From positions 1 to 64,000 of the forward strand of contig CALWPK010000003.1 in assembly GCA_944383415.1 (NCBI GenBank): a stretch of 64,000 nucleotides of DNA, written 5' to 3'. Shown piece by piece: positions 25,114-62,416 of the stretch (position 1 is the first letter of the stretch; every line of letters begins with the position of its first letter). Below the pieces are notes generated by a model that worked only from the letters and a program-made list of their open reading frames with translations, searched no databases and was not told where the DNA came from. Source of the DNA: an uncultured Clostridia bacterium (lineage in GTDB: Bacteria > Bacillota > Clostridia > Christensenellales > UBA1242). A program made the translations under genes and the position numbers.

Positions 25114-25148
25114 TTGACAAAACTAAACGAACAAATTAAACTTATACT
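25114..25148 (+). promoter_or_regulatory. Promoter; predicted leaderless mRNA
   Basis: TTGACA (25114-25119), 17 bp, TAAACT (25137-25142). The ATG at 25149 is exactly 7 bases after the -10, with no Shine-Dalgarno. Confidence 0.75.
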
Positions 25149-26009
25149 ATGAAATGCAATTTATGTCCAAGAAAATGTAATGTAGATCGAAAAAAAGATC
25201 TAGGATTTTGCGCCCAAACTGATGAACTGAAGATCGCAAAAGTAATGCTACATAAATATGAAGAGCCTATAATTAGTGGTTCAAATAAAGGAAGTGGAGC
25301 AATCTTCTTTTCAGGATGCAATCTAAAGTGTGTCTTTTGCCAAAATCATCCCATTAGTCAAGGCGGGAAGGGAAAAATTGTCACAATTCCTGAATTCATT
25401 GATATGATTAAAAAATTGGAAAAACGCGGTGCACACAATATCAATCTAGTGTCTCCTACGCAGTTTGCTTTTCAGATAGCCTCCGCTCTCAAGATATACA
25501 AGCCAAAGATTCCAGTGGTTTGGAATTCGAATGGCTATGAAACTGAAGAGATGCTAGAGATGCTACGTGGACTCGTGGATATTTTCCTTGTAGATTTCAA
25601 ATATTCAGACAATTCTCTTGCGCTAAAATATAGTGGAGCGCTAGATTATGTGGAGGTCTCTACAAAAGCACTGATCAAAATGAAATCACTTCAACCAAAT
25701 GACGTCATCGAAAATAGTCTTATGAAAAGGGGTGTCATTATCCGCCACCTAATTTTACCAGCGCATACATCGGATAGTGTGAAATGTTTGGAGTTTATCG
25801 CAAACAATTTAGGAAAGGATAGTATCGTTAGCATAATGAGCCAATATGAACCCAGATATGACGCGAAACGCTATCCCGAAATCAATCGAAAAATCAAGCA
25901 TATAGAATACAAGCGCGTGGTCAACTATGCTCTAAAATTAGGACTCAAAAATGCATACGTTCAAGATCTGTCAAGTGCGGATTCGAAATACACCCCAAAG
26001 TTTAGATAG
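25149..26009 (+). CDS. Radical SAM protein, PflX/PflA-like
   Basis: A 286-aa radical SAM protein. An N-terminal CxxCxxxC (CNLCPRKC) precedes the SAM/4Fe-4S motif CNLKCVFC in SGCNLKCVFCQNHPIS, followed by the partial TIM-barrel (NINLVSPTQFAFQIASALKI, then VVWNSNGYETEEMLEML). This matches the COG1313 'pyruvate-formate lyase activating enzyme-like' group, whose members mostly lack a proven target. No pfl gene is in the window. It appears to be a single leaderless gene. Confidence 0.85.
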   Translation: MKCNLCPRKCNVDRKKDLGFCAQTDELKIAKVMLHKYEEPIISGSNKGSGAIFFSGCNLKCVFCQNHPISQGGKGKIVTIPEFIDMIKKLEKRGAHNINLVSPTQFAFQIASALKIYKPKIPVVWNSNGYETEEMLEMLRGLVDIFLVDFKYSDNSLALKYSGALDYVEVSTKALIKMKSLQPNDVIENSLMKRGVIIRHLILPAHTSDSVKCLEFIANNLGKDSIVSIMSQYEPRYDAKRYPEINRKIKHIEYKRVVNYALKLGLKNAYVQDLSSADSKYTPKFR

Positions 26010-59002: not shown

Positions 59003-59037
59003 AAAAATGAAGTGATTTGATGTTCACTTCATTTTTT
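59003..59037 (+). terminator. Terminator of the 2-enoate-reductase-like gene
   Basis: AAAAATGAAGTG and CACTTCATTTTT pair around ATTTGATGTT, about 90 nt past the stop codon. Confidence 0.9.
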
Positions 59038-59089: not shown

Positions 59090-59124
59090 TTGACAAATGT
59101 TTGACTATATGTTAATATCATATT
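59090..59124 (+). promoter_or_regulatory. ileS operon promoter
   Basis: TTGACA (59090-59095), 17 bp, TAATAT (59113-59118). The leader-peptide ATG at 59125 is exactly 7 bases after the -10. Confidence 0.85.
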
Positions 59125-59175
59125 ATGAAAATGAACATAATTATTGGCAAAATCATTGTATCGTCAATCATTTGA
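59125..59175 (+). CDS. ileL: Ile-rich leader peptide of ileS (MKMNIIIGKIIVSSII)
   Basis: A 16-codon ORF at the predicted +1, with no Shine-Dalgarno, encoding MKMNIIIGKIIVSSII. Seven Ile codons (ATA ATT ATT, ATC ATT, ATC ATT) fall in 16. It is followed at once by TTGCTG (59184-59189), which can pair with CAGCAA (59206-59211); the latter is part of the terminator stem at 59201-59222. Slow translation at Ile codons when charged tRNA-Ile is scarce would favour the antiterminator and expression of ileS. The symbol is descriptive. It is inferred from sequence, but the composition and layout are those of a classic attenuator. Confidence 0.82.
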   Translation: MKMNIIIGKIIVSSII

Positions 59176-59200
59176 TGAGCGTTTTGCTGTAATTAAACGA

Positions 59201-59227
59201 AATGTCAGCAAGCGCTGGCATTTTTTA
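59201..59227 (+). terminator. Attenuator terminator upstream of ileS
   Basis: AATGTCAGC (59201-59209) pairs with GCTGGCATT (59214-59222; one G-U) around AAGC, then T-run to 59226. It is 50 bases before the ileS ATG and 25 after the leader-peptide stop. Confidence 0.88.
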
Positions 59228-59275
59228 AGATTATTTCAAATGAGATATTAAAATTTTTGATTTTTAGGAGAAAAT

Positions 59276-62200
59276 ATGAAGAAAGAAAGTGCGAATCTAA
59301 ACTATGTGAAAATGGAAGAAGAAATATTGAAATTTTGGCAGGATAGAGATATCTTCAACAAGATGAAAGAAAAGAACAAGAAGACTGGCAAATATTTCAC
59401 CACTCTTGATGGTCCTATCACGGCAAACTATACTATGGGACTTCATCACGCCTATGGTAGGACGTTTAAGGACGCTATGATCAAATTCGAGGCAATGCGT
59501 GGGTGCGATCAGCATTATCAAAACGGCTTTGACGCACATGGACTACCTGTGGAAAAGAAAGTCGAAGAGGCGCTTGGTCTCGATAGCAAACGCGACATTG
59601 AACGCTACGGAATTGATAAATTCGTCAAGGCGTGTATGGACTCTGTGGAGAAATATTCTGCACTGCAAACTCAATCTTCCATCAGGCTCGGTCAGTGGAT
59701 GAATTGGGAGGATAGTTATTACACCAATAGCGATGAAAATATCACGGCTATATGGTATTTTTTGAAAAAGTGTCACGAAAAAGGTTGGATCAAACAATCT
59801 TATCGTCCCACTCCGTGGTGCACGCGATGCGGTACCAGCATAGCAGAGAATGATATGTCTGGAGATGACGTATATCGCGATGATACCTGTCAGGCAATCT
59901 TCTTCAAATGTCCTATCAAAAATTCGAATGACGATATCCTCGTTTGGACCACTACTCCTTGGACACTATGTGCCAATGTGGCTGTGGCTGTCAACCCAGA
60001 ATTTGATTATAATATAGTAAAGATCAAGTCAAGCGACAGGAATCTGATAGTGATGGCGAATCTTATGAAAGTCTTGAAAGACGATGTGGATCACGTCATC
60101 AAGACAGTGAAAGGAAGCGAATTGGTAGGCAAGGCGTATGAAACCTGTTTCCCAGAACTAGATGAACAGCAATTCGAGCATAAAATTGTGGCGTGGGATA
60201 TGGTGGACGCTAGCGAAGGATCTGGAGCGGTGCATATTGCTCCGGGTTGTGGAGAGAGCGACTATGATTTGGGCAAATCGATTGGACTAAAAAATATTAT
60301 TCCTATTGATGAGGCGGGATATTTCTATCCGAATTTCGGAGTGTTGGCGGGCAAAGATGCCAACAATGACGAAACTCGCGATTTCATATTCGATGTGCTG
60401 AAACTGCGCGGAAAAGTTTATTACACTCACAAATATACTCACAGATATCCACATTGCCACAGATGCAAACGCCCTTTGGTGTACAGGCTGATCAGTCAAT
60501 GGGTCATCAAAGTGGATGAGGTGAGACCTCAATTGATCAAGACGATTGACGACGTCGAATTCCAGCCAGATTTTATGAAAAAACGTATGCTAGATTGGCT
60601 CAACAATATGGGAGATTGGTCAATAAGTAGGAATAGATATTACGGACTGCCACTACCTTTCTATCCTTGTAAAAATTGCGGAGAATTGACTGTGGTTGGC
60701 TCAATTGAAGAGTTGAAAAACCTATCGAGTGCAGAAGAGGTGGACAAGATTCCTCATCTTCATAGACCATATATAGACAATGTGAAGATTACTTGTCCTC
60801 ATTGCGGGAGCAAGGTGGAGAGGATCAAAGAAGTGGGAGATGCTTGGCTAGATGCTGGTATTACTCCGTTCAGCACAAACAAATATTTCACTGATCAAGA
60901 GTTTTTCAAGAAAAATTTTCCAGCAGAGTGCGTGATCGAGGGAAAAGAGCAGATCAGATTGTGGTTCTATTCCTTGCTCATTATGAGTGTCGTCATTTTG
61001 GGCAAAGCACCATACAAGAAGATCTCCACCACTCCAATGTTGCTCGCTCAAGACGGGAAGAAATTGTCAAAATCTAGCCCTAATAATATTCCTCTTGATA
61101 CCGCATTTGAAGAGATTGGCGCAGATATCATAAGATACAATTTCGTCAATACTCCGCTTATCAACGATGTCAAGTTTGGACGCGAAACGTGTGATGAAGT
61201 GAAAAGAAAACTTTTGGGTCTTTGGAACGCGTATGTATTCTTGAACACTTATGCATATATAGACAATCCAGACCTCACAGATTACAAGCCTAAGGAAAGC
61301 GAACTTTCGTTCATAGACAGATGGCTAATCAATCGTGTAAATGAATTCTCTTCCAATGCCTATACTGCATATTCCCATCAAAATTTCGGTGCGGTCGCTA
61401 AAGATTTTGAAATCTTGGTGGACGAACTGACCAACTGGTATATTAGGAATAATAGACGTAGATTCTACAAGAGCGAAAACAATATTGACACTCTCAATGC
61501 ATATTTCTGCTTGAATTATGCTATCAAGAATATCAGTATGACGATGTTCCCTATCATACCATTCATTAGCGAATACTTGTGGCAAAATGCGGTGCGTGTT
61601 TTGGACAAAAAAGCACCGGAAAGTGTGGCATTAAACGGTTTCGTTTTGAATGAATATGAGGTGAAAGATTTAGGTTTGACTCACAAAACAGATATTGTGC
61701 GCGATGTTTTCGCACTCACTAGCAAACTGAGAAACGAAAATCAGATCAAAGTGAAACAACCTCTCAAAACTCTATATATCAACGGCAATGACGATGTCGC
61801 TCAGGCGGTGGAAATCTATAGAGAAATGATAGAGAGTGAGTTGAATATAAAAAATGTCGTGATGGAAAAAGACAATTCCAAATTCAATATAGAGTTTTTG
61901 GTGCTTGACTTCAGAAAGGCGGGTGCAGTACTGAAAGGTGACGTCCAAAAAGTAAAAGAATTGTTGCTTTCTGCTGGCGAGAAAGAGATGGCTAGAATGG
62001 TGGGAGAATTCAAAGCGGGCAAGGTAAATGTCGGCGAATTTAAGAATTTGGATAGTTCATTGTTCAATATTTCCACCAAACCAAAAGACGACTTTGTGAT
62101 CGCCAACGATGAAAGTCTGACAGTCGTTCTCGACATCACCATTGATAGAGAACTTATGCTTGAAGGATTGTCGAGAGAGTTGATCCGTACGGCACAAGTT

Positions 62201-62416
62201 TTGAGAAAAGAAGCCAATTTCAATGTAGAAGATAGAATATATTTGGATTTTGAGACTGAAAGTGAGGACCTGAACGAAATCATTGACAAATTTGCTGACA
62301 AAATCAAGAGCGAACTTTTGGCTCTAGATGTGATGAAATTGAGCGATCCTGAAGTGGAAGAGAAATGTGAAATCGCTGATGAAAAAATTGTAATCAAAAT
62401 GAAAAGAGCAAAATAA
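59276..62416 (+). CDS. ileS: Isoleucyl-tRNA synthetase, eukaryote-like (type 2)
   Basis: Charges tRNA-Ile. The 1046-aa enzyme has a HIGH-region variant in GPITANYTMGLHHAYGRTFK, GLPVEKKVEEALG, the editing domain (VWTTTPWTLCANVAVAVNPE; GSGAVHIAPGCGESDYDLG), the KMSKS variant AQDGKKLSKSSPNNIP, and a long C-terminal part with the anticodon-binding domain. The length and the C-terminus fit the eukaryotic-like type 2 enzymes, which in bacteria are often linked to mupirocin tolerance. The start follows TTAGGAGAAAAT. It is controlled by the leader-peptide attenuator upstream rather than a T-box. Confidence 0.95.
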   Translation: MKKESANLNYVKMEEEILKFWQDRDIFNKMKEKNKKTGKYFTTLDGPITANYTMGLHHAYGRTFKDAMIKFEAMRGCDQHYQNGFDAHGLPVEKKVEEALGLDSKRDIERYGIDKFVKACMDSVEKYSALQTQSSIRLGQWMNWEDSYYTNSDENITAIWYFLKKCHEKGWIKQSYRPTPWCTRCGTSIAENDMSGDDVYRDDTCQAIFFKCPIKNSNDDILVWTTTPWTLCANVAVAVNPEFDYNIVKIKSSDRNLIVMANLMKVLKDDVDHVIKTVKGSELVGKAYETCFPELDEQQFEHKIVAWDMVDASEGSGAVHIAPGCGESDYDLGKSIGLKNIIPIDEAGYFYPNFGVLAGKDANNDETRDFIFDVLKLRGKVYYTHKYTHRYPHCHRCKRPLVYRLISQWVIKVDEVRPQLIKTIDDVEFQPDFMKKRMLDWLNNMGDWSISRNRYYGLPLPFYPCKNCGELTVVGSIEELKNLSSAEEVDKIPHLHRPYIDNVKITCPHCGSKVERIKEVGDAWLDAGITPFSTNKYFTDQEFFKKNFPAECVIEGKEQIRLWFYSLLIMSVVILGKAPYKKISTTPMLLAQDGKKLSKSSPNNIPLDTAFEEIGADIIRYNFVNTPLINDVKFGRETCDEVKRKLLGLWNAYVFLNTYAYIDNPDLTDYKPKESELSFIDRWLINRVNEFSSNAYTAYSHQNFGAVAKDFEILVDELTNWYIRNNRRRFYKSENNIDTLNAYFCLNYAIKNISMTMFPIIPFISEYLWQNAVRVLDKKAPESVALNGFVLNEYEVKDLGLTHKTDIVRDVFALTSKLRNENQIKVKQPLKTLYINGNDDVAQAVEIYREMIESELNIKNVVMEKDNSKFNIEFLVLDFRKAGAVLKGDVQKVKELLLSAGEKEMARMVGEFKAGKVNVGEFKNLDSSLFNISTKPKDDFVIANDESLTVVLDITIDRELMLEGLSRELIRTAQVLRKEANFNVEDRIYLDFETESEDLNEIIDKFADKIKSELLALDVMKLSDPEVEEKCEIADEKIVIKMKRAK

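Follow-up and report, generated by a model that had tools for sequence, protein, structure and literature searches.

The ileS leader region

The analysed window comprises 64,000 nt and belongs to contig 3 of a 16-contig assembly of 1.09 Mb from an uncultured Clostridia bacterium, an organism known from metagenome assemblies only. Its close relatives are also metagenome-assembled uncultured Clostridia, including Candidatus Onthoplasma. The window carries a gene for isoleucine--tRNA ligase (ileS), whose unit is set apart from the upstream gene by a terminator-like hairpin. The following features were assigned to this region:

59006–59037, + strand: terminator-like hairpin of the upstream gene, AATGAAGTGA/TCACTTCATT and T-run (sequence reading)
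59090–59095, + strand: -35 box TTGACA (sequence; kept in relatives)
59113–59118, + strand: -10 box TAATAT, preceded by TG (sequence; kept in relatives)
59125–59175, + strand: putatively leaderless leader ORF MKMNIIIGKIIVSSII*, ATG at the predicted +1 (sequence; conserved in relatives; codon test)
59138–59153, + strand: region 1, the Ile-codon arm of the anti-antiterminator P0, pairing with 59181–59195 (fold, homologue duplexes, swap test)
59161–59178, + strand: P1 hairpin, which contains the stop codon and lies within P0 (covariation)
59179–59195, + strand: region 2, GCGTTTTGCTG and flank (fold, alignment, swap test, covariation)
59201–59226, + strand: terminator P3, AATGTCAGC-AAGC-GCTGGCATT and T-run (sequence, fold, covariation)
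59206–59215, + strand: region 3, CAGCAAGCGC, the 3' arm of the antiterminator P2 (fold, swap test, covariation)
59266–59270, + strand: Shine-Dalgarno sequence AGGAG of ileS (sequence reading)
59276–62416, + strand: ileS, isoleucine--tRNA ligase, 1046 aa (NCBIfam TIGR00392, score above the cut-off)

The promoter, the ATG, the leader ORF of 16 codons including 7 for Ile, the 9-bp terminator with its T-run, and ileS were all found where the initial annotation had placed them. It had further proposed a competition between TTGCTG/CAGCAA and the terminator. The competing pairing is present, but these motifs are only the core of a longer antiterminator of 10 bp with one bulge, P2, in which 59179–59189 pair with 59206–59215 (GCGUUU-(U)-GCUG with CAGCAAGCGC). 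Two elements were added to that description, namely the P1 hairpin and the long-range helix P0, an anti-antiterminator that involves the Ile codons.

A 17-nt spacer separates TTGACA from TAATAT, and the -10 box is followed by CATATT and then the ATG at 59125, leaving a gap of 6 nt that places the first base of this ATG at the expected +1. A search with the leader families of Rfam 15 gave no match above the gathering threshold at the ileS leader, and the matches within the window were a tmRNA and one tRNA. A simple terminator scan did not call the terminator of the ileS leader (9-bp stem at 59201–59222, T-run to 59226), presumably since some of the T-run is taken up by the stem, which is a limit of the T-run rule.

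Conservation of the leader within the genus

The layout of a leader followed by ileS recurs in all 34 genomes of the genus. Thirty-one of them, including the window genome, fit one covariance model with a single copy per genome, and this model matched 0 of the 263 genomes examined from outside the genus. In a further named relative (L026), ileS belongs to an operon that the leader precedes. No match was obtained in three genus-mates, whose leaders before ileS are unrelated in sequence, encoding MKTINANIIINIIRA, MKTIIANIIIIINT, and MKTINANIIIII*, the last of which was read by eye. Their hairpin sequences are entirely different (antiterminator core GCUAUAUG/CAUAUAGC, CUACCAUA-type terminator), with the Ile codons and the logic kept; in the third, additional DNA also separates the leader from the terminator.

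Two further observations concern this region. At L185 (G027), the Ile leader and the terminator belonging to it are about 150 nt of extra DNA apart. L006 (near 3704), L007 (near 3701), and L023 (near 3726) each show, some 110–140 nt upstream of the ileS leader, another leaderless ORF that ends in LPIKF or a similar sequence; it is like the ILPIK-type leaders of other members but poor in Ile, and is perhaps a decayed tandem copy.

The short ORF is rich in codons for the amino acid of the downstream gene, and this enrichment is specific to its frame. Over 29 distinct leaders, Ile accounted for 186 of 507 in-frame codons (36.7%), against 21 and 37 codons in the other two frames (4.1% and 7.3%) and 64 ± 7 after shuffling each ORF, a comparison that leaves some relatedness in. 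The Ile codons are a mixture of ATT, ATA, and ATC; IleRS itself contains 7.3% Ile. Every ORF among 22 aligned leaders, window included, has 5–8 Ile in 14–23 codons. One divergent leader (L179) has only 3. The initial annotation had proposed an alignment of related genomes in which Ile codons, hairpin, and antiterminator should be conserved and the rest should drift, and this is the pattern that was obtained, with the ATG at the predicted +1 conserved as well.

In the aligned leaders, TTGACA or TTGACT, a spacing of 17–18 nt, and a -10 box precede the ATG, with a gap of 6 nt between -10 box and ATG in 19 of the 22 and of 5, 7, or 8 nt in the other three. Behind consensus promoters in 301 kb of DNA from the genus, 29 ATGs lie exactly 6 nt after the -10 box (20 ileS leaders and 9 other ORFs), forming a single sharp peak, and all other distances up to 39 nt account for 0–5 cases each. 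The promoter-N6-ATG pattern occurs 20 times in the window genome versus once for the reversed pattern, and an excess was found in 34 of 34 genomes of the genus. This promoter geometry strongly implies that the start codon lies at, or a few nt from, the transcription start, and leaderless starts would be a lineage trait of the genus. Strict leaderlessness does not hold throughout, as the three divergent leaders have their ATG 7–11 nt after the -10 box. Judged by the model matches, the Ile content relative to shuffled ORFs, and the 6-nt peak, the layout of the ileS leader is far beyond chance.

Elsewhere in the window, a consensus promoter with an ATG 6 nt after its -10 box (25114–25151) was noticed at the start of a long gene (MKCNLCPRKCNVDRK...), which looks radical-SAM-like by eye and is a candidate long leaderless gene.

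Alternative pairings, the attenuation model and its competitors

Region 2 has two partners, as 59179–59189 pair with region 3 (P2) and 59181–59195 with region 1 (P0). In P0, which is part of the minimum-energy fold, the Ile codons and GGCAAAA pair with UUUUGCUG and a variable flank, and comparable duplexes are possible in the homologues. The antiterminator P2 and the terminator P3 share 59206–59209 and 59214–59215. Region 2 is common to P0 and P2, and region 3 to P2 and P3, which makes the pairings mutually exclusive as in classical attenuators: an antiterminator excludes an intrinsic terminator, and a 1:2 pairing that acts as anti-antiterminator overlaps the codons for the sensed amino acid. 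The predicted energies of P2 and P3 are alike (-11.3 and -11.8 kcal/mol), and the outcome therefore depends on co-transcriptional order.

For P1, P2, and P3, changes were found on both sides of pairs, and pairing collapsed if the partners were slid by a few columns. When partners were swapped between species, P0 became less stable, averaging -10.1 instead of -12.3 kcal/mol, and 0 of 20,000 permutations equalled the true pairing; the corresponding count for P2 was 8 of 20,000. These permutations leave some relatedness in and treat related sequences as exchangeable, and the counts are not p-values.

Based on conservation, codon bias, covariation, the exclusive pairings, and the promoter-to-ATG geometry, ileS is very probably controlled by a ribosome-mediated transcription attenuator, whose leader peptide, translated from a leaderless 5' end, would sense the supply of Ile-tRNA. 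The actual start site, translation, stalling, termination, and the response to Ile are the parts of this reading that we infer. An attenuator had already been proposed in the initial annotation; conservation, codon bias, and covariation support that proposal, and P0 extends it.

RNA polymerase would start at the first base of the leader ATG, so that a ribosome would load directly on the 5' AUG. When Ile-tRNA is short, the ribosome would stall on the Ile codons, which form one arm of P0, and would thereby open this helix; region 2 could then pair with region 3, the terminator would be blocked, and ileS would be transcribed. When Ile-tRNA is ample, the ribosome would reach the stop codon. There it would cover much of region 2 in leaders of the window type; in types with a stop further upstream, and at leuS, it would leave and P0/P1 would refold. 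With region 3 free, the terminator would form, giving an RNA of about 100 nt.

The same sequences could also act by masking only, in which case P0 would not be functional, a ribosome at the stop codon would block region 2, and read-through would be the default of an untranslated leader. In a geometry test with an assumed ribosome footprint of 13 nt, counted from the start of the codon in the A site, stalling at 140 of 143 Ile codons left region 2 free. Under the same assumption, 15 of 22 leaders have 6–8 nt of region 2 covered by a ribosome at the stop codon, the window-type leader about 7 nt, which would suit masking, but in the other seven none is covered, and the stop step must therefore differ among members. 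As the stops of the leuS leaders also lie too far from region 2, and as P0 belongs to the minimum-energy fold and withstood the partner swap, we regard masking alone as unlikely.

It is highly improbable that the peptide itself is the functional product, as a nascent-chain arrest sequence or a small membrane peptide with Ile serving hydrophobicity. Its sequence is indeed hydrophobic and ends in a conserved ILPIK in some members; however, the residue enriched before ileS is Ile and not Leu, Val, or Phe, and before leuS it is Leu, peptide length and non-Ile residues drift among relatives, and the stretch with the codons both pairs with region 2 and coevolves with it.

Control by a T-box, or by another tRNA- or ligand-binding riboswitch with the short ORF being incidental, would have been the conventional expectation. 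That T-boxes are usual at ileS in Bacillota, as assumed beforehand, was borne out in most relatives outside the genus, where 14 of 17 tested loci have an RF00230 T-box directly upstream of ileS. T-boxes also serve other synthetase genes in the window genome, where they precede genes reading as thrS, glyS, valS, serS, and pheS (named from N-terminal sequence and Pfam; the pheS T-box is a partial match). For ileS of the window, a T-box was rejected and a riboswitch of any such kind is scarcely credible, since no Rfam family, RF00230 included, matches there, none of the five T-boxes of its own genome lies at ileS, only about 76 nt of transcript, mostly ORF, precede the terminator, and in-frame Ile codons are conserved at ileS as Leu codons are at leuS. 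In this genus of uncultured gut Clostridia, ileS appears to be controlled by an attenuator with a tiny Ile-rich peptide translated from the first base of the mRNA.

Related leaders, known systems and a probable exchange with T-boxes

In the window genome, a predicted leaderless ORF encoding MWNKLLALLL* lies before leuS (L104 1501–1650, G000:C3:103438 onward; gene identified by TIGR00396, above the cut-off), with an antiterminator GGUUGUGCUG/CAGCAUAACC and a terminator GACAGC...GCUGUC followed by a T-run. About 22 leuS loci of the genus were examined, and 10 of these have Leu-rich leaderless leaders, e.g., MIKKELALLL, MNKFLLALL, MKNKFLALLLQ, MNKSLALLLL, MKSLNLLLTI, and others, with a P0-like pairing. 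Because the amino acid matches the synthetase at two genes, ileS and leuS, sensing is strongly supported.

Two other leaderless elements were noticed. At 1932–2100 of the window, downstream of a tuf-like gene and about 0.6 kb upstream of a trpS-like gene (2719), a short leaderless ORF MKNKFNKNAKYWHCI* is accompanied by the pairing TGCTATATG/CATATAGCA and a terminator ACTGTCA...TGACAGT, and is followed by a 25-codon GTG ORF; it is possibly another attenuator. At L109 255–433 (G000:C7), a leaderless ORF MRYHTVLAYVKD* and a hairpin precede a gene of the ABC-F family, reminiscent of antibiotic-responsive leader peptides.

In a tree of IleRS sequences, the leaderless group forms one well-supported cluster plus L028, whose IleRS is placed with strong support among T-box-bearing relatives and whose genome carries the attenuator. 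Identical places of leader and T-boxes identify L028 as the genus-mate G033; the simplest reading is therefore that ileS was replaced behind the resident leader.

The mechanism class is already known elsewhere. The E. coli pheST attenuator also places a synthetase gene under a leader peptide of its own amino acid, but that leader is Shine-Dalgarno-led, rich in Phe, and from Proteobacteria. T-box leaders (RF00230) hold the same position and the same physiological task at ileS in related genomes; they sense uncharged tRNA directly, with no peptide. In the ilvBNC leader of C. glutamicum (MTIIRLVVVTARRLP), transcription starts one nucleotide from the leader ATG, and regulatory codons for branched-chain amino acids are combined with anti-antiterminator, antiterminator, and terminator hairpins, as is predicted here (PMC11857589); that system, however, serves biosynthesis in Actinobacteria with codons for three amino acids, whereas the present one serves ileS in Bacillota and is almost purely Ile. 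Classical attenuators, i.e., leader peptides at aminoacyl-tRNA synthetase genes, were also predicted for leuS and trpS of Streptomyces, again in Actinobacteria, where ileS has T-boxes and not attenuators; for Firmicutes, the T-box-rich comparison group of that study, T-boxes and no classical attenuation were reported (PMC1262725). Mycobacterial Cys-rich short ORFs upstream of cysteine genes were likewise proposed as attenuators in Actinobacteria with common leaderless mRNAs, the mechanism being left open (PMC4633059); they share with our leaders the enrichment of one amino acid before related genes. Within Bacillota, a leader-peptide attenuator is described for ilv-leu of S. aureus (PMC5794164) and others are predicted for his operons of Firmicutes (PMC9413887), both being biosynthetic, and leaderless leaders are not described in the available part of either source.

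The initial annotation had stated that no ileS example of this form was known. In an open-access literature search, no leader-peptide attenuator that is leaderless or directed at ileS was found described for Bacillota, but the leaderless leader peptide itself is not new, given C. glutamicum ilvBNC. What appears to be new is that such an attenuator targets ileS, that synthetase genes of Bacillota have leaderless attenuators, and that these exchange with T-boxes.

A wider idea, to which we give somewhat less than even chances, is that leaderless attenuators form a lineage-wide platform (ileS, leuS, probably the ABC-F gene, and the element upstream of trpS) standing in for T-boxes; with the sensor ORF first, a ribosome could load once the 5' end emerges, allowing a tighter coupling of transcription and translation in Bacillota. 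The ileS attenuator would be a compact amino acid sensor (about 100 nt) at a gene where T-boxes rule in the phylum, and as the neighbours of the clade still use a T-box, a swap of RNA sensors with the same input and output may be traced here. The gene history of L028 and the three unrelated hairpins around conserved Ile codons suggest that sensor logic is separable from sequence. The leaderless start would also make it testable how initiation at the 5' end supports attenuation in Bacillota.
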